Shown: positions 7,207 through 33,370 of the stretch, piece after piece | Position numbering within the stretch: the first letter of the stretch is position 1 | Layout: the number at the start of each line of letters is the position of its first letter | Made by a program: the position numbers and the translations under genes | Notes under the pieces: model-generated | Seen by the model: the letters and a program-made list of their open reading frames with translations, nothing else | The model's database searches: none | What the model was told of the DNA's origin: nothing | Virus record (IMG/VR): IMGVR_UViG_3300036398_003301 | Coordinates: 1 to 35,323 of that record | Length of the DNA: 35,323 nt | Reading direction: 5' to 3' (one strand) | DNA from: a virus

Positions 7207-8430
7207 ATGGCAACTCTTACTAAAGGCAAAACATTTACCGAAGGCGAAATCGTTACGCCTCAGAAACTTCACGATCTCGTTGGTCTTGGCTCGGTGTCAA
7301 ATATTGTCAATTCCGACATTTCCGCCGCCGCTGCTATTGCCGACACGAAGCTGGCCACCATTTCCACGGCTAACAAAGTCTCCCAATCCGCCGTGACCAA
7401 TCTCACGACCGACCTGGCTGGGAAAGCTGCTTCCTCGCACACGCACGACGATCGCTATTACACAGAGACGGAGATGAATACTCTGTTGGCAGGCAAGCAG
7501 GCGTCTGGAAGCTATGCGCCTGCAACGGGTATTGCCCAATCCGCCGTAACCAATCTCACGACTGACCTGGCTGGGAAGGCTGCTTCCTCGCACACGCACG
7601 ACGACCGCTATTACCAAAAGACGGAGGTAAATATTCTGCTCGATGGCAAGCAGCAGGTTGGCTCTTATGCCGATGCTACGCACACGCACGGGAATATCAC
7701 CAATACTGGTGCTATTGGCTCCACTGCAAATTTGCCAGTTGTAACAGGTTCCGCTGGCCAATTGACAACAATCAACGCTGGTCAAAGTGGGCAAATCTTG
7801 TATTCAAGTGGAGGAAATTCAGCCCCATTTTGGGGTAATCCTTTAGGGGCAGGTAATACAGTAATAACTAACTTAAATCAACCAAATACTGTTGTTCAAA
7901 GAGACCCTGTTGGAAGTTTTTATGCCAACACTGGAATATTTAATTCACTTAATTGCCAGGACTCTTTTACTGGTGACATCTTGTTTTCAATAGCTCCGAG
8001 CAATAGTGGAAATACGGCAATTGGTTTGCCTAATGTTGCAAATTCTACTCCGTTTATAGAATTTTACCGAAATGGAACAGAGGTTGGAAAAATTGTAACA
8101 AGCGGCACAAGCAGTATCTCTTACAACACCTCCTCCGACTACCGCCTCAAAACCAACATCGAGCCACTGACAGACGCTTTAGCTCGCCTGCTCCAAATCC
8201 CCGCCCACCGCTTCAACTGGCTTGCCGATCCGAATGGCCAGAAAGTCGATGGCTTCCTCGCCCACGAAGCCCAGGCCGTCGTGCCCGAATCCGTCGCCGG
8301 CACCAAAGACGCCGTGGATGCAGATGGCAAGCCAATCTACCAAGGCATCGACCAAAGCAAGCTCGTCCCCCTCCTGGTCGCTGCCGTCCAAGAACTCGCT
8401 GCCCGCGTCGCCGCCCTCGAAGCCAAATGA
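7207..8430 (+). CDS. Tail fibre with S74 intramolecular chaperone autoprocessing domain
   Basis: The 407-residue protein has a collagen-free stalk with two copies of a 51-residue repeat containing TNLTTDLAGKAASSHTHDDR (HxH motifs that can bind metal in trimeric fibres). A Ser/Asn/Gly-rich central domain encoded by AT-richer DNA (about 7700-8110) follows. The C-terminus is a peptidase S74 chaperone: SSDYRLKTNI with predicted cleavage at Ser310-Asp311, then FLAHEAQAVVPESV and a final coiled coil ending AARVAALEAK. S74 domains help trimeric fibres fold and then cut themselves off. A host-recognition fibre or spike is the likely role. Confidence 0.85.
   Translation: MATLTKGKTFTEGEIVTPQKLHDLVGLGSVSNIVNSDISAAAAIADTKLATISTANKVSQSAVTNLTTDLAGKAASSHTHDDRYYTETEMNTLLAGKQASGSYAPATGIAQSAVTNLTTDLAGKAASSHTHDDRYYQKTEVNILLDGKQQVGSYADATHTHGNITNTGAIGSTANLPVVTGSAGQLTTINAGQSGQILYSSGGNSAPFWGNPLGAGNTVITNLNQPNTVVQRDPVGSFYANTGIFNSLNCQDSFTGDILFSIAPSNSGNTAIGLPNVANSTPFIEFYRNGTEVGKIVTSGTSSISYNTSSDYRLKTNIEPLTDALARLLQIPAHRFNWLADPNGQKVDGFLAHEAQAVVPESVAGTKDAVDADGKPIYQGIDQSKLVPLLVAAVQELAARVAALEAK
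7384..7671 (+). repeat. Two-copy in-frame tandem repeat (153-bp period) in tail-fibre gene
   Basis: Two near-identical segments start at 7384 and 7537 and run for about 135 bases each, differing mainly at third codon positions. The 153-base spacing equals 51 codons, so each copy adds one stalk module to the fibre. Synonymous divergence between the copies indicates selection at the protein level rather than a very recent duplication. Confidence 0.75.
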
Positions 8431-11978: not shown

Positions 11979-13007
11979 ATGTCCTCCCGCGCACAAACTG
12001 CTTTCGTAAACACCGTGCCGTTGCCGTCGATTACCAACGACCCGGACCCGAACAGCATCCTTCCTACCGGCCCGGCGCTATCGGCTCTCGACCCCAGCGA
12101 TCCCGCCACGGCACAACAGCCTGTCGGCAGCGCGATGGATGCCATGGACGGTCAGGAAGAGGAACCGTTGGACGACTTGGCCGCACAGCTTGCCGCAGGC
12201 CGTCGCATTCGCATTACAAGCAAAGAGCAATGGGCGGCCATGTCTCCGCACCAGAAGGAAGTCGTCCGCGCTGCCATGTCTTCCGGCGGTCAGATTACTT
12301 CCAACAACGCCGTGCGCATCTACCAGGACAGCGTGAAACGCGCCCGCGCCAACCAGGTGCAGTCCGTATCGTTACCCGATGGCCGCACGGTGAACATGGT
12401 GAATAACCAAATCATCCCCGAAGCCAAGCAGCCCGAGCCGGTAAAGTTGGAAAGAGAGAAAGCGGAAGATGGCACAATAATGATGATCGACCCGCTCACC
12501 GGACGCAGCTTCCCGGCATGGAATGAAGCCAGTGGTGAACCCGTGCGCGGCCCAGCCAAGCTCTCAGCCACGCAAGAGGACAACATCAAGCGCCTGCAAA
12601 TGCAGAGTGAAAACATCGGCGCACGCCTTAACGCCCTCACAAGCTTCACCGAAAACGACAAGGTTGAATATGACAACCAGACCGGCAGCTATGCTGCTGC
12701 GCCGTTTATGGGAACAAAGGTAAAGGCTCTGCGCACCCAACTGGAGAAGGAGAAAAGCGACTACGACAAGCGCATTGAAATCTCCCTGCGACCCGTGCGC
12801 CGTTCTGATTCTGCCCAAACTCAAGCCTCGCAACCCGCCCCTACGCCACAGGCTACGCCATCCCCCACGCCCAGCGTGACGCCATCCCCGACTCCCCGCC
12901 CGAACCCTATGCCCACTCCTTCTGGAAACATTAGCAAGGCTCAATACGACGCCCTTGCACCAGGATCTACCTTTACCTGGAACGGCAAGACCTACACCAA
13001 GAAATGA
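11979..13007 (+). CDS. Putative virion-associated protein with Pro/Thr-rich linker
   Basis: The 342-residue protein has a disordered Pro/Asp-rich start, a helical body (about residues 65-285), then a Pro/Ser/Thr-rich spacer (about 285-315, repeated TPSPTP words). It ends in a short module SKAQYDALAPGSTFTWNGKT followed by YTKK. Similar terminal modules (a Y-D/N-A-L-x-x-G-x-x-F core) recur at the C-termini of virion proteins in unrelated phages and may be virion-docking tags. The stop overlaps the next start (ATGA), coupling it to the giant downstream gene. Confidence 0.55.
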   Translation: MSSRAQTAFVNTVPLPSITNDPDPNSILPTGPALSALDPSDPATAQQPVGSAMDAMDGQEEEPLDDLAAQLAAGRRIRITSKEQWAAMSPHQKEVVRAAMSSGGQITSNNAVRIYQDSVKRARANQVQSVSLPDGRTVNMVNNQIIPEAKQPEPVKLEREKAEDGTIMMIDPLTGRSFPAWNEASGEPVRGPAKLSATQEDNIKRLQMQSENIGARLNALTSFTENDKVEYDNQTGSYAAAPFMGTKVKALRTQLEKEKSDYDKRIEISLRPVRRSDSAQTQASQPAPTPQATPSPTPSVTPSPTPRPNPMPTPSGNISKAQYDALAPGSTFTWNGKTYTKK

Positions 13008-16000
13008 GTTGGGCACCCGCTGAAGTTCTTGAAGAGGATTTTACCCCTCCAGAAGTTTTCAATGCTGCTGAAGATTTTGTTCCTCCCGAAACTCTTGACC
13101 CCGCACTTCCCGCCGCTGTGCCATCCGCCGTGCCGCAGCCGGATGAGGCGATTGATTTCCTGCGCGATGCCGAGCGCAACGGCCAAGCCGCCGACGACCA
13201 AGGCATAAAGGAAGGTATCTTCCCTCAAGGCAGCACGCCGTGGAAGACCCTCGATGGCCGCCTCTACATAGACCCCGCCCGCTACAACATGGCCGTGGAG
13301 CAAATGTGGAACCTCGGCGTAATCGACTCCACGAACTACACCGAACTCCTTAAAGGCACGGTGGACCAATGGGACGAAGCCAGCCAGAGCTACATTCCAA
13401 GCGTCGAGAAAGCCACCGCCGCCCGCCGCGACCTGGAGCGCCGCGCCGGTGCCTACCCCGAAGCCAAAGCCGCCGCCTCCGGCCTCCTCAAGGGAGCCAT
13501 GCAGACGGGAGCCGCCCTTGTCGCAGGCCCGGCCACCGCCGCTCTCACTATCCCCACCGGCCCTGGTGCAGTGGTTGCCGGTATTGCCGGAGGCACAGCC
13601 GCCGCCCTCGGCACAGGAGCGGCCTACGATAAAGCCCTCGAAGCCTCGGCCAAGGAGAGCGAACTACTCGATAGCTTCTACGCCGCCAACCAACTTGCCC
13701 CTGGCTACAACTCCGCCGGCCAACTCGTCTCGATCCTCGCCCCGACTCCCGTATCGGTCTCGCGCCTGGCTAACGCCGCCAACCTCATCCGCGCCGAGAA
13801 GGGCGGAGCCGAAGCTGCCAAGTTTATCAGCGGAGCCCTCGGCACCGGAGCCGCTATAGGCGTGGGAACGGATGTTGCAATCCAAGCCGCCAACATCGGC
13901 CTGGATAAACTCATCCACCCCGAGATCAACCCCCTCATCGCCGCCGAGCAATACCGCCAGACAGGCCAGCAGCCACCGCAACGCCCCGAGTTTGACCCCG
14001 CCAGCACCGCCATATCCGGCACCCTCGGCGCACTCACCGCAGGCATCGGCGTGAAGGCTCGCAACCGCGTTTACTTTGCCGACGAGCTGCCCTTGGTAGA
14101 GCAGAAGGTAAAACTCGGCACGGCCACTCGGGAAGAAGCGGCGGATTACTTCTCTATGCGGCGCACCGTGGAAATCCTACGCGAAGACCAGCGCCTCATC
14201 GACGCCGGAGCTATCGCCAAGAGCACCGTGGACTTCATGGGCAAGCGCGTGCTGGATACCAACACCGTCATCAATCCCCGCTTCCAACGCGACATCCTCA
14301 CGCAAGCCGGATTCGAGCCACCAGTTCCCGCTACCCCCCGCCCAAGCCAGCCCGCCATACCCTACGCCACCGAGAATCCCCAAGCCGCCATCCCTCTCCA
14401 AGGCCAACCTGCCGCCTACACCGGCCAAGCGTTCCTCAACCGAGGCGGCGCAGCCCCCGCCTTCCAAGGCGGCAGCAACGCCCTGCCCGGCCCCGAGGGG
14501 ATTCAAGCCCTGCCAGGACCGGCCGTGGTATCAAATGATACCTTCGACCCTTCGACCGCTACCGAAATTCCCCCAACGGCCTCTGCTCCCGTAGCAAGCA
14601 CACTCAGAGCGCCTGAAGCGACAGGCTCACCCGAAGTGATCAGCGGGGAGGGGGCCTCTGTTTCCAAGCCAAAGCGCCGGTTCCCTCGCATATCCTACGA
14701 TCCCGGCACCTTTCCTATCCTCTCCGCCCTCCAAGAATCTCCCGTGCGCACCAGCGCCAGCGGCAAAGCAGGCGGGGAGAATGACAACTGGAATGAGATA
14801 CGCCGCACCGGCAGGCACTTTGCCGAGACGCACCGCTCCACCGGCACGCCCTACGATGTCCGCGCCCAGGAACTCTACGACCTTGGCCTGATCGCTGACC
14901 CGTATCCCGACACCCTATTCAACGCCTACATGGCCGAGGTGAACAGCTACCGGCAGCTCAAGGATGGCGACCCGCAAGAAGCCGAATACAACAAGCTGCA
15001 AAAGCAATACGACAATTTCTCAAAAGCCGCCCTCGACCCATCCGACTCCAAGAAAGCAAAGCTGCAACCCATCTCTGCAAACTCGCTACAAATCGGCGAC
15101 AAGGTGAAGATCGGCGACGAGTGGCTCAATGTGAAAGCCATCGACCCCGAGACATTCACCATCTCCCTGCAAGACGGTTCAAAATTTGGCCTCCAGAAAG
15201 TGGAAGACGGCACGCAAATGTGGGTGCAGGAAGCCGAGCTTGCCGCCCCGCCCACCGGCGACATAGACAACTTCTTTGGCGAACCCATCGACACGCCTGC
15301 CCCTGCCAAACAGGACGATCCTTTCTCCGGCAATATCTTTAGCCCGTCCGAAATGCCATTCAGCCTCGACCGCCCGGTGCTGGACGACAGCCTCACAATT
15401 CAACGCGAAGCCGACGAAGCCAAGCGCCAACAAGCGGCCTACGAGGAAGCGCAAAAGGGACAAACCAAAATGGCATTTGCCGACGCCGGACCGCAAGGGC
15501 CGGTCATGCCCGCAGCGGCCACCATCCCAAAGCCCGCGCTCAATACCTACAACGACGCCCAAGTCTTCGCCGACTACCCCGACGCCGTGGGCGTAGTGCG
15601 TGCCATGAATGGCACTTGGACCATGCCGCTTATCCTCGGCGGCCTTGACAAGGTGCCGGTGGTGGAGATGCCCGAGGCCGTGGAGTTTGTCAAAGCCCTC
15701 TCCGGCGGCAGCCCCACGGTGCAAATTCCTCGCAAGCGCAATGCGCTGGGGAGCTTCAGCCCGAACGGCCAAGGCGTCATCACCCTGCATCCCGACCTCA
15801 TCAAAGCCGGTGGAGAAGCCTCGGCCATGATGACCTTCATGCACGAGATCGGGCACAATATCCAATTCATGGACGACTTCCGCATGGAGAAGGGGAATCT
15901 CCTGGGAATCATTTCTGGAAACCCAACGCTCAAGCAAAGCATTCCGCTCGATCCCAACCCCGCGCCGGTGGAAGGCTGGGCCTACAGCGAGCAGCCCATC

Positions 16001-19000
16001 ACCAGCAAGCAACGCGAGGGCATCCGCCAGAAAGCCGAGGCCGACCTCCGCGCCTCCCTCGAAGGCGAAGTGCGCAAGGTCATCGTCAACGAGCCCATCT
16101 ACGCACAGAGCGGAGTCACCCCCGAGATCGTCAAAGGACTCTTCGGCCTCGACGCCCGCGAGCAATGGCCGGAGCTCTACGATTGGTTCGCCCGGCAAGA
16201 TGGAGCCACCAAAGCCAACATCGTCAAGCAGGCCATGAAGGGAATCCTCGACAGCCGCCTGGCAAAGTTCCAAGTGCAAGGCGAGCAGATCGGCACCAAT
16301 ACCCGCGAGGAAACGCAGACCGTTGGCGGCCGCGAGCCAACTCAAGACGAACTTCGCGAAGCCTTCCACGCCGCCATGCGCAGCGAGATGAACGCCCGAA
16401 ATGTGGCGGACCTCAAATACATCCGCCAAGAACTCATCGACCTGACCAAATGGTGGAAGCCCTTCGACATTACCCGCGCCACGCCGCAACACCTCGCCTA
16501 CCGTTTCAGCTCCGAGGAACTCTTCGCCGACGCCATGAGCGTGCTCCTCAACAGCCCGGCTGACCTTAAAGCCCGCGCCCCTATTTTCTACGAAACCTTC
16601 TGGAACAACCTCGACTCCCGCCCCCAAGTCAAAGCCAAGCTGGCAGAAATCTACGACCGGATCAGCAAAGGCCGCGACGCCGTGCTGGATAAGCGCCTCG
16701 CCCGAGACATGGAAGCATTCAAAGCCGGTGCCGAGATTTTCATTAGCAAAAGCGCCGCCGCTCAAGCCCGCCGCGCAAGCCTCACCGGATGGTGGGAGAA
16801 TCTTAAAGACCAGTATTGGAATATCTACCAGCCGATCATTGATTCTGCCGCAAAGGCACGCGCTGCCGGGAAGATCACGCCAGCCCAAGAAGACAGCATC
16901 CGCTGGCTCACCGAGGAGCATCCGCTCGCTGAAAGCAAGCTCCAAGTCAAGCTGGCCGACATAGGCCGCCTCTACCAAAGCCTCGATGCAGCCGGTGTAG
17001 CCCGCGAAAATTTCGGCATCTTCCTCAAATACCATCGCATCGCCAATGAGCGCCTCGAAGTAACCCGAGAGATAGACGGGCAAATGGAAGTCGTCGGCGA
17101 GACCGGCCGGGCAGTCATGTTCAACCCCGGCGGCGAGACAGACCGGACAGCTCGGGAGGCGCTTGCCAGGCTGCAAGCAACGCTTGGTCCCGAGGGCTAC
17201 GCCGCGCTGGAGACCGCTGTTAGTGGGTTTCGTGATGTTATTTATTCCATCATGGAAGACGCCAATCAATCCGGCCTTTTTTCAGCAGAGCTGTGGAAGA
17301 CGATCAGCACAAACAAGGACAACTACGCCGCGTTCACTCCGCTGGAATATGTCCAAGAGTATCTTCCTTCAACGATCCGCAAGCAGGTAGGCACCTTTAA
17401 GGAAATCGCCGACCCTCTTCAGCAAACGGTGCTCAAGGTCATAAGTATCCACCGCGCCGCACAGAACAACAGGTTTACTCGGGAGGCCGTGCGGGTAATC
17501 GGGCAGACATCGCCCGAACTCGTCACCACCGCGCCCATGAAATACAACGGCAAAACCATGGAGCCTCAGCCTCCAAAGGATTCGGCCTTGTCTATGGTGG
17601 AGTGGAAAGTAAATGGCCAGCGTGTGGGCGCTCATATCCCCAAACGCTACGCCGCCATGTGGGAAGACAAGTCGCCCGCCGAGCGTGATGCGATCCTCCG
17701 CCTGCTCTCGACAGGGTTTCAACGCCTCGTTTATGGAGCCATCATTCGCTACAACCCGGCATTCCAACTTTTCATGTCTCCCGCCCGCGACTTGCAACGC
17801 TCGCTCACCAACATGCCAGGCGGCATTAAAGGCCGAGCAAGGTTTGTCATGCGTCTCCTCGACCCCGAGGCCTGGGGAGCGTCCATTGATTGGGCGCAAG
17901 GAGATGTGGGCAAGACTCAACTCATGCGCGAGATGGTTGAGAGCGCCGCCACGGGCGGCCCGCACTCGGCCTTCGGTGGACGCATGGGAAGCGATGATGA
18001 CAGCATCGATGCCATCCTGCGGAAGTTTCACCTTCAAGATTCCAAGAGTCGTAATCTTTTAACCAGGGCAATCATGGGTCCGCTGAAAGCCATCGAGTTT
18101 GCAGGGCAGATTCTCCAAATGCTTCCCAAGGCGTCGGCCTACAAGGTGCTCGTCAAGGATATGGGAATGCCCGCGCCGCAAGCGGCCAACACGATCCGCA
18201 ACCACATCGGCATCCCCAACTACTACAAGAAAGGCCGCCACGCTTCATCAGCCGGGGCCATTGTGCCGTTCCTCAACATTTTTCTCCGCTCCTACGAATC
18301 GCTCCAACGCAATTTCCGTGGGGCCGAGCGCAACATGAACGCCAAGGAATGGTGGCTCGCCTGGCTCTTCACCGGCGGCGGACTGATAGCCGTCATGCAA
18401 ACACTCGCCAAGGAAGGCGTCCTCGGCGAAGAACTGCAAAAACTCTACTCCCGCGTGCCGAACTGGGACATGACCAACTTTGCCGTCCTTCCCCTGGGGA
18501 ATGTCTCCACCGGCGACACCGGCGGCAAGACAGCCTACCTCCGCCTGCCGCAGGATGAAGGGCTGCGCGTCATCAATGGCGTCGTCGGCAAAGTCCTAAG
18601 CGCTTCGATCCGCTCCGCCAAAGGCGACCCCACCGCGCCCCAGCTCGGCGATGTCTTCGCAGGCATCAGCTCGCAAGTGCCAGGGCAAAACACGCTCATC
18701 GAGGTCGGCCAAAACTGGACAACCTTCTTGGCCGGCCGAAACCCACGCGATGATTTCCGCAACCGCAACATCCTCTCCGAAGATCAATGGCTCGCCGGGG
18801 GATGGGAAGCAACCAAGCCCATGCTCGGCTGGACCCTCGGCGCCACCGGCATCACAAACTTCTTCAACTACGACACCGAGGCCGACACCCTCACCGAAAT
18901 GACAATCAGCGCCACGCCGGTGCTGAATAAATTTCTCAAGATCAGCGACAGGGGAGTTTACCAAAACGATCTCAAGCTTAACCAGGCCGACGAGCGCGAC

Positions 19001-19252
19001 ATGGCCAAGGTCCGCCTCTCGCTGCCAGATTTCGTCAACGGGCTCCGCACCGAATACAACTACCTTAAAACCCGCAGCGAGCAACGCAGCGAGCGTGAGG
19101 AATTTAGATACCAAGAACTCGGAATGTGGAACCGAGCCTATCGAAACGCCATGGACGAAGTGGAGACATCCATGGAACTCGGCAACCGCTCAAGCGCCCA
19201 AAGCGCCATCCGCTCCCTCGTCCAAGAAAGCGAATACTACAAGCAACGCTAA
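13004..19252 (+). CDS. Giant polyvalent protein with metallopeptidase motif, probable ejected virion protein
   Basis: The 2082-residue protein is the largest in the window. Residues about 160-215 are Ala/Gly-rich and hydrophobic, a possible membrane-active zipper. Residues 947-951 are HEIGH, a zinc-metallopeptidase motif, and EELFAD near residues 1171-1176 could give the third metal ligand. The last third (NPAFQLFMSPARDLQRS near residue 1585, then a VPFLNIFLRSYESLQRN segment near 1750) resembles LPD38-type domains of large polyvalent phage proteins, which are injected with DNA and act early in infection. The start is ATGA-coupled; the stop overlaps the convergent integrase stop. A role as an internal core protein with protease activity is inferred. 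Confidence 0.65.
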   Translation: MSWAPAEVLEEDFTPPEVFNAAEDFVPPETLDPALPAAVPSAVPQPDEAIDFLRDAERNGQAADDQGIKEGIFPQGSTPWKTLDGRLYIDPARYNMAVEQMWNLGVIDSTNYTELLKGTVDQWDEASQSYIPSVEKATAARRDLERRAGAYPEAKAAASGLLKGAMQTGAALVAGPATAALTIPTGPGAVVAGIAGGTAAALGTGAAYDKALEASAKESELLDSFYAANQLAPGYNSAGQLVSILAPTPVSVSRLANAANLIRAEKGGAEAAKFISGALGTGAAIGVGTDVAIQAANIGLDKLIHPEINPLIAAEQYRQTGQQPPQRPEFDPASTAISGTLGALTAGIGVKARNRVYFADELPLVEQKVKLGTATREEAADYFSMRRTVEILREDQRLIDAGAIAKSTVDFMGKRVLDTNTVINPRFQRDILTQAGFEPPVPATPRPSQPAIPYATENPQAAIPLQGQPAAYTGQAFLNRGGAAPAFQGGSNALPGPEGIQALPGPAVVSNDTFDPSTATEIPPTASAPVASTLRAPEATGSPEVISGEGASVSKPKRRFPRISYDPGTFPILSALQESPVRTSASGKAGGENDNWNEIRRTGRHFAETHRSTGTPYDVRAQELYDLGLIADPYPDTLFNAYMAEVNSYRQLKDGDPQEAEYNKLQKQYDNFSKAALDPSDSKKAKLQPISANSLQIGDKVKIGDEWLNVKAIDPETFTISLQDGSKFGLQKVEDGTQMWVQEAELAAPPTGDIDNFFGEPIDTPAPAKQDDPFSGNIFSPSEMPFSLDRPVLDDSLTIQREADEAKRQQAAYEEAQKGQTKMAFADAGPQGPVMPAAATIPKPALNTYNDAQVFADYPDAVGVVRAMNGTWTMPLILGGLDKVPVVEMPEAVEFVKALSGGSPTVQIPRKRNALGSFSPNGQGVITLHPDLIKAGGEASAMMTFMHEIGHNIQFMDDFRMEKGNLLGIISGNPTLKQSIPLDPNPAPVEGWAYSEQPITSKQREGIRQKAEADLRASLEGEVRKVIVNEPIYAQSGVTPEIVKGLFGLDAREQWPELYDWFARQDGATKANIVKQAMKGILDSRLAKFQVQGEQIGTNTREETQTVGGREPTQDELREAFHAAMRSEMNARNVADLKYIRQELIDLTKWWKPFDITRATPQHLAYRFSSEELFADAMSVLLNSPADLKARAPIFYETFWNNLDSRPQVKAKLAEIYDRISKGRDAVLDKRLARDMEAFKAGAEIFISKSAAAQARRASLTGWWENLKDQYWNIYQPIIDSAAKARAAGKITPAQEDSIRWLTEEHPLAESKLQVKLADIGRLYQSLDAAGVARENFGIFLKYHRIANERLEVTREIDGQMEVVGETGRAVMFNPGGETDRTAREALARLQATLGPEGYAALETAVSGFRDVIYSIMEDANQSGLFSAELWKTISTNKDNYAAFTPLEYVQEYLPSTIRKQVGTFKEIADPLQQTVLKVISIHRAAQNNRFTREAVRVIGQTSPELVTTAPMKYNGKTMEPQPPKDSALSMVEWKVNGQRVGAHIPKRYAAMWEDKSPAERDAILRLLSTGFQRLVYGAIIRYNPAFQLFMSPARDLQRSLTNMPGGIKGRARFVMRLLDPEAWGASIDWAQGDVGKTQLMREMVESAATGGPHSAFGGRMGSDDDSIDAILRKFHLQDSKSRNLLTRAIMGPLKAIEFAGQILQMLPKASAYKVLVKDMGMPAPQAANTIRNHIGIPNYYKKGRHASSAGAIVPFLNIFLRSYESLQRNFRGAERNMNAKEWWLAWLFTGGGLIAVMQTLAKEGVLGEELQKLYSRVPNWDMTNFAVLPLGNVSTGDTGGKTAYLRLPQDEGLRVINGVVGKVLSASIRSAKGDPTAPQLGDVFAGISSQVPGQNTLIEVGQNWTTFLAGRNPRDDFRNRNILSEDQWLAGGWEATKPMLGWTLGATGITNFFNYDTEADTLTEMTISATPVLNKFLKISDRGVYQNDLKLNQADERDMAKVRLSLPDFVNGLRTEYNYLKTRSEQRSEREEFRYQELGMWNRAYRNAMDEVETSMELGNRSSAQSAIRSLVQESEYYKQR

Positions 19253-20343
19253 AGCGGCTTCGGGCGGTTAATGAGATTGTGGTAGTGATTGAATGTGGTT
19301 TGGATGTCCCTGTGCCGCAGTAACCGGCTCGCCACCTCGATGCCATCCCTCGCCGCAATCTGAGCGCCGTATTCTTTACGCAGGTTATAAGCGCCCTTCT
19401 CACCGTCAGGAATGTAGAGCCTTACAAATTCATTGATTCCGTAGTGCGTCAGGTCAAAAGCCTCCGTTTTGCTTGTCCTGGGAATGACATACTCGCTCTC
19501 GCCTGCAAGCGCCTTCTGGATCAACCGCAGCAACCGCGCCCGCATCGGCACGCGGCCGCTCCGGCCTTTGGGAGCCCAGTCGTCGCGCTTAATCAATACC
19601 AGGTCCGCCGTGCCATCCTCCTGCCAATCCACCCAGCTCCACTTGAGATATTGCACCTCGTCATTGCGCAAGCCCGCCTTGCGCATCAGCCAATAGATAG
19701 CCCAGACCCGAGCATTTTGACGCCGCAGCGGGATCCTCGCCGCCCGATCCATACGCCGAAGCGCCTCGCGGTCGATAGGCTGATAGCCCTCCGTCGTCGC
19801 CGAGCCCCCCGACACCGCCCAGAAATCCGTCAGATTCGGCAGCTTCAATTTTTCAAACAGGTAGAATCTTTTGCGGGCCACCACGCTCTTGATGGTCTGA
19901 ACATCGGTATGGATGCCGCTCTCCGAGCGCCCCGCCCGTTTCTGCGTCTCAATCCATCCCCGCAGCGCCGAGGCCGTCAGCACCTGGTGCGTGCTCTGCT
20001 CCTGCCAGTCCTGCCGCTCTGTCACCTCCTTAACAAAAGCCGCAAACCGGCTCAGGCTCTTCGTCACCGACGCCGCCGGTCCATGCACCTTGTAAATCTC
20101 CGCCACCTCGCCGCACTTCGCAAAGCCCGGCCGCTTCACCACCGCCGCAATCTTGTGCTCGTCCGCCGTAGCCAGCGCCAAGGCAATCGCCTTAGCCCTC
20201 ACCAGCGCCGCCGCCTTCCCTGCCGCCGAGTGCACATGCACGCCCGTGCTCTTGCTCACCCGCTCGCCATCTACCTGGACGCGGAAATACCAAGTATTTT
20301 TCGCCGCAATCCAATCAACCGAAATCTCGCCATGTTTTCTCAT
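19249..20343 (-). CDS. int: Tyrosine-recombinase integrase
   Basis: The 364-residue protein has an N-terminal arm-binding-like region (WYFRVQVDGERVSKSTG), a SAM-like core-binding domain (about 75-165) and a C-terminal catalytic domain. Visible active-site elements are Arg226 in AGLRNDEV, basic PKGRSGRVPM with a candidate Lys, NLRKEYGAQ with the second Arg (the usual preceding His is replaced by Tyr/Asn), LLRHRDIQTT with the second His, and the nucleophile Tyr354 in NHYHN. It would catalyse site-specific integration and excision. It is transcribed towards the late genes and lies next to the tRNA-like att core at 20497-20538. Confidence 0.9.
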   Translation of the reverse strand: MRKHGEISVDWIAAKNTWYFRVQVDGERVSKSTGVHVHSAAGKAAALVRAKAIALALATADEHKIAAVVKRPGFAKCGEVAEIYKVHGPAASVTKSLSRFAAFVKEVTERQDWQEQSTHQVLTASALRGWIETQKRAGRSESGIHTDVQTIKSVVARKRFYLFEKLKLPNLTDFWAVSGGSATTEGYQPIDREALRRMDRAARIPLRRQNARVWAIYWLMRKAGLRNDEVQYLKWSWVDWQEDGTADLVLIKRDDWAPKGRSGRVPMRARLLRLIQKALAGESEYVIPRTSKTEAFDLTHYGINEFVRLYIPDGEKGAYNLRKEYGAQIAARDGIEVASRLLRHRDIQTTFNHYHNLINRPKPL

Positions 20344-20353
20344 AATAGGGACA

Positions 20354-20371
20354 CCACTTTGGACACCACTT
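20354..20371 (+). repeat. Candidate integrase arm-type site, left copy
   Basis: CCACTTTGGACACCACTT is an 18-base element containing two CCACTT words 12 bases apart, immediately upstream of the integrase start. A copy differing at two positions lies at 20584-20601 on the other side of the att core, and a partial GACGCCACTTT lies at 20470-20480. Flanking direct repeats are typical of integrase arm-binding sites, but binding is inferred. Confidence 0.45.
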
Positions 20372-20496
20372 CGACCCTAAAAACAAAGCAAATCGCGCAA
20401 GCATTGCAAGCCATCAAAAATCCAACAAGCAGCAATCTTCTGAGTGCTACAGAGGGAAAACGGCGCAAGGACGCCACTTTAAGAGAAGAGGGGGAG

Positions 20497-20538
20497 TGCA
20501 GCCATGAGGAGTCGAACCTCAAACCTTCTGATCCGTAG
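20497..20538 (-). other. attP: attP core: 3' half of a tRNA-Arg(ACG)-like gene
   Basis: Read on the minus strand, the segment folds as the 3' part of a tRNA. It gives an anticodon loop CTACGGA (anticodon ACG), 3' anticodon stem TCAGA, variable loop AGGTT, a perfect T-arm TGAGG/CCTCA around TTCGACT, then acceptor strand TGGCTGC and discriminator A. Upstream of the loop the bases (ACAAA) do not pair with TCAGA, and there is no D-arm or 5' acceptor strand, so this is not a complete tRNA. Integrating phages often carry exactly this half to restore the target gene. Phage genes on both sides mean it is attP rather than attL or attR. Confidence 0.8.
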
Positions 20539-20583
20539 TTTGTAGATGGTGCGTTCATTATTAGTGAGTTGTGTTTAAGGCCG

Positions 20584-20601
20584 CCACTTTGGAGGCCACT
20601 T
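20584..20601 (+). repeat. Candidate integrase arm-type site, right copy
   Basis: CCACTTTGGAGGCCACTT matches the element at 20354-20371 at 16 of 18 positions in the same orientation. It lies 45 bases beyond the anticodon-loop end of the att core. The adjoining stretch 20344-20602 carries no convincing gene and is read here as the attP region. Confidence 0.45.
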
Positions 20602-23898: not shown

Positions 23899-23996
23899 GG
23901 CTGGTGGCTGGTGGCTGGTGGCTGGTGGCTGGTGGCTGGTGGCTGGTGGCTGGTGGCTGGTGGCTGGTGGCTGGTGGCTGGTGGCTGGTGGCTGGT
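23899..23996. repeat. Fourteen perfect tandem copies of GGCTGGT
   Basis: The 98-base array is exactly 14 x 7 bases with no mismatch. On the minus strand it reads ACCAGCC and ends one base before the ATG of the lipoprotein gene. No frame on either strand contains a stop, and because 7 is not a multiple of 3 each gain or loss of a unit shifts the frame. It lies between the stop of the RHH-like gene and the lipoprotein start, filling most of that space. Confidence 0.95.
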
Positions 23997-24013
23997 GAGG
24001 TCGTGGATTTCTG

Positions 24014-24322
24014 CTATCCAGCCCGGCGGGAGCTCGGGCGATTCGCTGTTGAGGATCCAATACCTGAGTTGGTTGATGGTGTTATGACATTCTGGGCAAT
24101 ATCCTGGGGCGTGGCTTTTCCCGTTTTCTCGAAGCTGGTTGTTTTTTGTTGGGTGAAAACGGCGTGTTCTTTTGCTGCGTCCGTTAGCGCTGCGCGAGCC
24201 CAGCCGCCTTTGGTCATGCCGCTTTCAGCGGCCAAGCGGCTTATCTCCTGAAATGTCGAGTTATCCACGGAAGTGCTGATAATCACTGAGTCCTTGCCGG
24301 GGCTGTTGGTTTTTTTAGCCAT
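24014..24322 (-). CDS. Ribbon-helix-helix-like regulator candidate
   Basis: The 102-residue protein has a strand-helix-helix pattern near its start (residues about 12-50: SVIISTSVDNSTFQEISRLA followed by ESGMTKGGWARAALTDAAK), which fits an Arc/CopG-type DNA-binding fold. The C-terminal half is polar and probably disordered. It is transcribed leftward, divergent from the 49-residue RHH gene at 24428, across an intergenic control region with palindromes. By position it could be a lysogeny repressor. The fold call is moderate. Confidence 0.5.
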   Translation of the reverse strand: MAKKTNSPGKDSVIISTSVDNSTFQEISRLAAESGMTKGGWARAALTDAAKEHAVFTQQKTTSFEKTGKATPQDIAQNVITPSTNSGIGSSTANRPSSRRAG

Positions 24323-31413: not shown

Positions 31414-31664
31414 AACAAAATCCCTTTTTTGATGGTGCAGTAAATATTGGACGTGAAACGGATCCTCCGTTGAAACTGAAATTGCTTCAATCTGGAGAGT
31501 CATTTTTCAAACAAATGCACATACCCAAAGCAAATCAACTTCTTTGGAACTCTGAAGAGAAAGTATTGTATTATCTGAACAAGGATAGGGTTTTGTTTGA
31601 AGTTTTATTCAAAGAAGTCCCGACCTCCTCCGTGCCCTCTGTGTCCTCCGTGGTTAAATCATGA
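31410..31664 (+). CDS. 84-aa protein of unknown function with repeat-encoded C-terminus
   Basis: The AT-rich gene encodes a Lys/Leu/Phe-rich protein. Its last residues (SSVPSVSSVV) are encoded by the reverse copy of the 27-base repeat at 31628-31654, so the original end of the gene may have been altered by repeat insertion. Its stop TGA overlaps the terminase ATG. Confidence 0.45.
   Translation: MKQNPFFDGAVNIGRETDPPLKLKLLQSGESFFKQMHIPKANQLLWNSEEKVLYYLNKDRVLFEVLFKEVPTSSVPSVSSVVKS
31628..31654 (-). repeat. 27-base dispersed repeat, copy 2 (reverse orientation)
   Basis: On the minus strand this reads ACCACGGAG, GACACAGAG, GGCACGGAG, again three 9-base units. It ends 6 bases before the ATG of the terminase gene, so it occupies the terminase translation-start region. 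Confidence 0.75.
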
Positions 31665-33370
31665 TCCCCCAAACGCAAAACCCAGTTATCCCGCTCATCG
31701 AGGTTGAAGGCCGGTTGGCCGATGGGCGGTTTGTTGTTCGGTATCAAGGCCAGAAAGTCGCCGCCACCGAGGCGCAGTTGCTGGCCATCCACCGCGAGCG
31801 GGAGGAGCAGATCGCCCGCATGGTGGAAGACCCTTGGCGCTATGGCTGGCTGAATCCAGCCTGGGAGCGGGCGGATGCGGCTTATGCGGAGCTGCGGGAG
31901 AAGTTTCGGAAAGGCGTCACGGAGCTGCTTATCCTCGGCGGCAACCGCTCGGGCAAGTCGCGTTACTTTGCACGGAAGGCGATGCAGCATTTGGTGAACA
32001 CGCCGGGCGCGAAGGTGTGGTGTTTGCAATCCACCGAAGCGGCATCCATCCAAAACCAGCAGCCCTATTTGTGGGAATACCTGCCGAAAGAATGGAAACC
32101 CTCCGCCAGCGGCAAGCTCAAGAAGGGCGCGGTGGCGAATATCACCTACTCTCAGAAGGGCGGTTTCACCGAGAACAGCTTCGTGCTGCCGAATGGCTCG
32201 CAGTGTTGGTTCAAGTTCTATTCGATGGATGTTTCCTCGATTGAAGGTGCCGAGTTGAATTTTGTATGGGCCGACGAATTGGTGACGCCGGATTGGTTGG
32301 AGGCGTTGCGTTTTCGTTTGCTCACGCGAGACGGCGAACTCGGCATCGGCTTCACTCCGGTCGAAGGCTACACCACCACCGTCAAAGAATACCTCGACGG
32401 CGCGAAGACGCTGGAGGAATGCGACGCCCCGCTCCTGCCGCGCTACCGCGATGGCAACTTGATCGGCTTGGAGACCGTTCCCCGCATCCAGCAATGCACC
32501 CGCGAGAAAGCCCGTGTCGTTTATTTCCACACCTCGGACAACCCCTACGGCAACCCCGAGGCCATGGAGACGGAGCTACGCGGCAGCAACCGCGAGCGAA
32601 TCTTGATGCGTGCCTACGGCGTGCCGACCAAGGCGAGGATGTCGATGTTTCCGAAATTCCGCGAGAATGTGCATGTCGTCCCGCACGACAAAATTCCCAA
32701 GGAGGGAACCGTCTTCCATTTCGTCGATCCCGGCGAAGGCAAAGCGTGGGCTATGTTGTGGATTCGATTTACTCCAGACAACCGTTGCTGGATTTACCGC
32801 GAATGGCCAAACCAACTGGAATACATCGAAGGCGTCGGCTACCCCGGCCCGTGGGCTGAGGCTGATGGCAAGCTCGAAGACGGCCGCCCTGGTCCCGCAC
32901 AAAAAGCCTGCTGCTGGTTTGGATTCAAAGAATACAAAGCCGTCATCGAAGCTGCTGAGAAAGCCGATGAAATCGCCAAGGTCGAAGAACGCTGGATGGA
33001 TTCTCGCTACGGCAATACGCCCACCATGACGGAGGAAGGCGTTCGCACCCTCATCGAACAATGCGACGACCGTATGGGCTTAGACTTCAAGGCCACCTCC
33101 GGCAAAGCCATCACCGAAGGCGTCGGCATCATCAACGATTGGCTCGCATTTGACGAGGAGCGCCCGCTTGGGTCGGATAACTCCCCGAAGCTCTACATCA
33201 GCGAGCGGTGCAAAAACCTCATCTACTCGCTTAAAACTTGGACCGGCAAAGACGGCAAGCACGGCGCAACCAAAGACTGGATCGATGTTCTCCGCTACAT
33301 CGTTCTCGCCAGGGATGTCGAGTATGTGGATCCAGAATCACTCCGCACCCGAGGAGGCGGCTGCTATTGA
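31661..33370 (+). CDS. terL: Terminase large subunit
   Basis: The 569-residue protein has an ATPase domain with Walker A GGNRSGKS (Lys99), a Walker-B-like NFVWADELV, and a nuclease domain beginning near Asp356 (FHFVDPGEGKAWAMLWIRF), then WMDSRYGN and IDVLRYIV with further acidic residues for metal binding. It cuts concatemeric DNA and pumps it into the prohead. The start overlaps the preceding stop; the gene is followed by small genes, not by a portal gene, which is unusual. Confidence 0.9.
   Translation: MIPQTQNPVIPLIEVEGRLADGRFVVRYQGQKVAATEAQLLAIHREREEQIARMVEDPWRYGWLNPAWERADAAYAELREKFRKGVTELLILGGNRSGKSRYFARKAMQHLVNTPGAKVWCLQSTEAASIQNQQPYLWEYLPKEWKPSASGKLKKGAVANITYSQKGGFTENSFVLPNGSQCWFKFYSMDVSSIEGAELNFVWADELVTPDWLEALRFRLLTRDGELGIGFTPVEGYTTTVKEYLDGAKTLEECDAPLLPRYRDGNLIGLETVPRIQQCTREKARVVYFHTSDNPYGNPEAMETELRGSNRERILMRAYGVPTKARMSMFPKFRENVHVVPHDKIPKEGTVFHFVDPGEGKAWAMLWIRFTPDNRCWIYREWPNQLEYIEGVGYPGPWAEADGKLEDGRPGPAQKACCWFGFKEYKAVIEAAEKADEIAKVEERWMDSRYGNTPTMTEEGVRTLIEQCDDRMGLDFKATSGKAITEGVGIINDWLAFDEERPLGSDNSPKLYISERCKNLIYSLKTWTGKDGKHGATKDWIDVLRYIVLARDVEYVDPESLRTRGGGCY

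Follow-up and report, generated by a model that had tools for sequence, protein, structure and literature searches.

A tRNA-Arg(ACG) 3' half as the attP of a temperate phage predicted to infect Verrucomicrobia

The window analyzed here, a virus contig of 35,323 bases that is classed as linear in its IMG/VR record, carries half of a tRNA gene in the midst of phage genes, which raises the question of what such a fragment is doing there. On the minus strand, positions 20538 to 20497 read CTACGGATCAGAAGGTTTGAGGTTCGACTCCTCATGGCTGCA (42 nt), the 3' half of a tRNA-Arg(ACG) gene from the anticodon loop to the discriminator base, as judged from the sequence, its conservation among close relatives (group A), and its match to host tRNA genes. 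The loop residues C32-T33-A34-C35-G36-G37-A38 are followed by the 3' side of the anticodon stem, the variable loop, the T stem (TGAGG/CCTCA, 5/5 pairs), the acceptor strand, and A73. ARAGORN reported 0 complete tRNA genes in the window, where no full cloverleaf is formed, and none of the first 60 loci fetched from the viral collection contained a complete tRNA. The 3' half, the perfect T arm, and the missing 5' half described in the first-pass annotation were thus all confirmed. When the window half was joined at the sequence level to a host 5' half, the reconstructed chimera folded as tRNA-Arg(acg). The exact 42-mer was present in 18 further IMG/VR contigs, every one of which (18/18) encodes a relative of the window's integrase; these contigs, together with complete host genes of the same allele, argue against a chance match. 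Identity between phage and host DNA starts at the loop CTACGGA (20532–20538, minus strand), beyond which the flanks vary among phages, and this loop is probably the strand-exchange (overlap) segment. Overall, positions 20497–20538 are a temperate phage's attP, in which one end of a host tRNA gene is present without interruption.

The attP adjoins a gene for a tyrosine integrase of 364 aa (19249–20343, minus strand), whose start codon lies 154 bp from the tRNA half, so that the earlier observation of an integrase beside the half tRNA was borne out. The protein is PF00589-like, its 25.4 bits falling just short of the 27.1-bit Pfam cut-off, and matches the PHROG integrase at 8e-11. The conserved catalytic R, K, R, and Y (R226, K259, R322, and Y354) were invariant among 15 aligned integrases, with the other catalytic positions assigned without certainty. 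A repeat scan placed arm-type sites on either side of the core, all on the minus strand: AAGTGGCCTCC (20591–20601) as the outer site on the far side of the core, AAGTGGCGGCC (20579–20589) 12 bp from it, AAGTGGCGTCC (20469–20479) between the tRNA half and the integrase, and two copies of AAGTGGTGTCC (20361–20371 and 20349–20359), the latter of which stops 5 bp short of the integrase start codon. These AAGTGG repeats occur 5 times in 465 b, compared with 0.11 expected and a maximum of 2 in 2000 shuffles. Their minus-strand offsets (-63, -51, +59, +167, and +179) are fixed in the nearest relatives, and the spacing is largely retained in other relatives even where the arm sequence differs. Because the last site ends so close to the start codon, the integrase likely autoregulates through it, as far as the sequence can indicate.

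A natural two-by-two swap among four integrases, those of the window, L195, L189, and L199, relates the arms to the protein. The window and L195 have a common N-terminus (residues 1–64, 95%) and AAGTGG-type arms, while L189 and L199 have another common N-terminus (residues 1–64, 81%) and AAGTTGTCCCC arms; the catalytic parts pair the opposite way (82% for the window and L189, 87% for L195 and L199). The arm-site sequence therefore tracks integrase residues 1–64 independently of the catalytic domain. This pairing is as would be expected if the N-terminus binds the arms, and it may also be maintained by co-transfer, since the arms adjoin the integrase gene at its 5' end.

The arrangement is conserved throughout group A, where the tRNA-Arg 3' half precedes the integrase in 44/44 phages, the distance to the start codon being 154 bp in the nearest relatives and 145–193 bp in the others. 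A segment of the half tRNA, CTACGGATCAGAAGGTT, is invariant among relatives. The T arm comes as allele blocks that are all 5/5 paired, namely TGAGG/CCTCA, GAAAG/CTTTC, TGTGG/CCACA, GAAGG/CCTTC, and AAAGG/CCTTT, with a further fully paired allele, ATAGG/CCTAT, in a single phage (L194). On the group A integrase tree, these alleles need 12 changes as against a minimum of 5, which indicates that the half tRNA is swapped as a single block, presumably against host genes.

Which hosts are involved was addressed with a degenerate half-tRNA search of one-per-species genomes, which returned 45 stretches, nearly all labelled Verrucomicrobia, Spartobacteria, Chthoniobacterales, or Terrimicrobiaceae and most of them containing a complete tRNA-Arg(ACG). 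The window's T-stem allele was found in 13 of the 33 complete host genes; in these 13, A at position 7 always faces T66, while C66 alleles face G7. The proposal that tRNA-Arg(ACG) is the integration target was upheld by exact matches of the 42-mer in complete genes of Spartobacteria/Chthoniobacterales. In the order of G062, a genome labelled Spartobacteria, the tRNA-Arg 5' half was detected in 138 of 213 genomes and was single-copy in 131 of the 138, counts that are limited by pattern exactness and assembly incompleteness. The predicted host is given above the species level, as Verrucomicrobia of the Spartobacteria/Chthoniobacterales kind. The assignment comes mainly from tRNA identity, which resolves to broad groups only. 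More broadly, uncultured soil and freshwater Verrucomicrobia are the predicted hosts of these viruses, and a metagenomic phage lineage is thereby linked to hosts with few known phages.

Several genomes of these hosts have a second, 3'-only copy of tRNA-Arg(ACG), which is the trace of other integrated elements. In a Spartobacteria MAG (CANIVT010000033.1, 1038–6211), a complete tRNA-Arg(ACG) and an additional 3' half flank a 5.1-kb element with genes for an integrase, a DnaB-N/AAA_25 protein, and a Terminase_2 small subunit; this element is likely a phage satellite in the same attB. In JAFKMU010000047.1 (about 240165–279112; L065 and L106), 39 kb separate a 3' half from a complete tRNA-Arg(ACG), and the two probably bound an integrated island at this gene. 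A complete tRNA-Arg(ACG) with the GAAGG allele also occurs in a 48 kb IMG/VR contig (L133, in G046, 7876–7952); the window's proteins had no match in the first 20 kb of that contig, which indicates a different element.

The phage genes that the first-pass annotation had placed on both sides of the half tRNA were recovered, with structural genes and an exonuclease to the left and a primosomal protein, DnaB helicase, and terminase to the right; no host genes were recognized in the window. The gene before the integrase is an open reading frame for a 2082-aa protein (13004–19252, plus strand), whose counterpart by position ends the run of phage genes ahead of the integrase in the lysogen described below, and the large terminase gene (31661–33370, plus strand), identified by profile and homology searches, served as the marker of the phage lineage. 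Among the relatives of at least 40 kb, 10 of 11 had overlapping ends (about 93–339 b, 92–100% identical) at different map positions, which indicates circular maps of 41–43 kb that were opened arbitrarily, and the attP is intact inside these circles. Compared with two relatives, the window lacks an arc of ~6.0 kb between 35323 and 1 (30815 to 36773 in G024) and is thus ~35.3 of ~41.3 kb, a fragment rather than a complete circle. Joining of the window's own ends was not achieved, and its circularity is deduced from the overlapping contig ends of relatives rather than from read pairs of the IMGVR record. Since phage genes flank an intact attP, the sampled DNA represents the unintegrated form, supporting an excised circle or virion DNA. 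The earlier reading of an excised, circular or permuted genome is accordingly supported, with the refinement that the window covers part of the circle. A short tandem repeat at 23904–24060 encodes GGWWLVA units on one strand, and the circular assemblies G007 and G020 open near its counterpart.

The window could instead be an integrated prophage or a tandem pair, in which case the half tRNA would be left over inside it from an earlier integration and would no longer serve as attP. Islander documents tandem islands at a single tRNA, and half tRNAs from other elements are common at the tRNA-Arg(ACG) host gene. We nevertheless regard this as very improbable, as the window is without a recognized host gene, the intact T arm, the arm repeats, and their spacing are all retained in 44 phages, and the relatives close as single-unit circles.

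The first-pass annotation had proposed looking for lysogens split in the target tRNA. No lysogen of the window phage or of other group A phages was found in the genomes searched: an integrase search of genome contigs yielded none, and 33 candidate host genomes contained only distant integrases. A relative's lysogen was recovered at tRNA-Thr(CGT). A terminase search in the Spartobacteria/Chthoniobacterales order led to two genomes, including G161. Its contig C4 carries the host gene smc (SMC_N, SMC_hinge) and a thioredoxin-reductase-like gene, then the tRNA-Thr(CGT) 3' half at 44.4 kb, and phage genes arranged as in the window (p25067, polymerase exonuclease, p27059, dnaB, terL at 75%, a post-terL ORF, and tail genes). 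Its contig C94 carries, in order, a 1689-aa open frame, the integrase, the complete tRNA-Thr(CGT), and a host GH5 cellulase gene; position alone links the 1689-aa frame to the window's 2082-aa ORF, as tblastn gave no match between them. The two junctions have a common core of 48 bp, and joining the host flanks restores an intact tRNA-Thr. We infer that C4 and C94 are joined; on this sequence-level reconstruction, the G161 prophage corresponds to a circle like the window's that has been cut at the attP point, with both junctions present, although its integrase and target tRNA differ from the window's. In G202 and G175, distant integrases lie beside complete tRNA-Lys genes, and no displaced half was found in the DNA fetched.

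A wider integrase search with reading of the attP sites revealed three attP types, each forming one integrase clade (100/100 support). Type A (n = 44) has the tRNA-Arg(ACG) 3' half, and type B (n = 12; L218-L227, L229, and L172) has the 3' half of tRNA-Lys(CTT), with one member in G158 of the Spartobacteria/Chthoniobacterales order. Type C (19 phages, among L228 and L230-L250) has a flipped tRNA-Arg(ACG) 5' half upstream of the integrase, its attP being the reverse complement of GC(A/G)GCCATAGCTCAATTGGATAGAGCATCTGACTACGGA. Among contigs with a terminase, identity to the window's terminase was 78–95% for type B and 57–62% for type C (68% over one partial match); in two type B members, the terminase is 94–95% identical and the integrase about 39%. 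The combination of a common terminase with differing attP and integrase types indicates that the integration module has been swapped within one phage lineage. It is fairly probable that one integrase family has turned its attP around in the tRNA-Arg(ACG) anticodon loop, with the 3' half in clade A and the 5' half in clade C. If so, the two clades would insert at the same site in opposite orientations, and a clade C phage would sever the tRNA from the host promoter and need its own. A TTGAC element lies upstream of 25 of 32 host tRNA-Arg genes compared with 0 of 17 clade C attP sites. When clade C was scanned for phage-borne tRNA promoters of the sigma-70 type, the scores were no better than those of shuffles; because host tRNA genes fared no better by the same score, only the TTGAC count is informative. 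One phage with a distant integrase (L173; G250:C56) has an upstream flipped 5' half resembling tRNA-Thr(CGT), with GTATCA repeats, apparently another 5'-half attP. A second core-like site between the core and the integrase, tracking the tRNA target, was a by-eye impression that we dropped, as scores with the matching probe barely exceeded shuffles (6.66 vs 6.16 for A, 6.82 vs 6.39 for B); the TCTGAT repeats of clade C were the only ones to stand out in that scan.

That the half tRNA acts as an RNA, either a transcribed tRNA fragment or a regulatory RNA, rather than as a recombination site is the least probable explanation, for although the block is conserved and structured, an Rfam scan gave no match above the cut-off (one sub-threshold, chance-like match), the block ends exactly at the gene-half boundaries and is kept together with the integrase arm sites, and the sister integrase clades carry a tRNA-Lys half or a flipped 5' half instead.

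We are therefore highly confident that the 42 bases are the tRNA-derived attP core of a temperate tailed phage of ~41 kb that infects Verrucomicrobia (Spartobacteria/Chthoniobacterales) and was sampled unintegrated. Integration of the window phage itself would proceed with the integrase bound to the core at the anticodon-stem half-sites and, via its N-terminal domain, to the AAGTGG arm sites on both flanks. The attP would recombine with the host tRNA-Arg(ACG) gene inside the anticodon loop, which would contain the exact crossover. The 5' half of the host gene, which brings its own promoter, would then join the phage-borne 3' half, so that the gene is rebuilt beside the integrase (attL), and the original host 3' half would be displaced to the other prophage end (attR). 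During target switching, arm specificity may move separately with the integrase N-terminus, and a half-palindromic anticodon stem would permit attP flips. The family can be regarded as a natural experiment, with one core combined with two arm sequences, the same arms with two catalytic domains, one tRNA in two orientations, and half-tRNA alleles swapped about a dozen times on the tree; this natural variation makes target switching by tRNA integrases directly testable.

Rebuilding of the target tRNA gene by the inserting phage is a well-known strategy. As in lambda-type heterobivalent systems, the window has a core with arm-type repeats on both sides and an adjacent integrase gene; it differs in that the arms are of the AAGTGG type, the core is a tRNA anticodon stem-loop, and no IHF or Xis sites were identified in the window. 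Mizuno et al. (2013) assigned metagenomic phages to hosts by attP identity to a host tRNA, and their set includes a marine Verrucomicrobia phage (PMC3861242); there, as here, an integrase-adjacent tRNA match led to a verrucomicrobial host, in another setting and for another phage. In Islander, anticodon-centred crossover is a main site class (2083 islands), and 3760 of 3919 islands displace a 3' fragment, the 5'-fragment type being known but rare (159 of 3919) (PMC4383910). The window does not differ from these tRNA islands: its attP tRNA fragment would rebuild the gene, and it falls in the anticodon-loop class, while the sister clade C is of the rarer 5'-fragment type. Overall, the window itself is an ordinary, well-supported case of tRNA integration; less ordinary are the three attP types, including a flipped clade, among phages with a common terminase, and the swap of arms with the integrase N-terminus.
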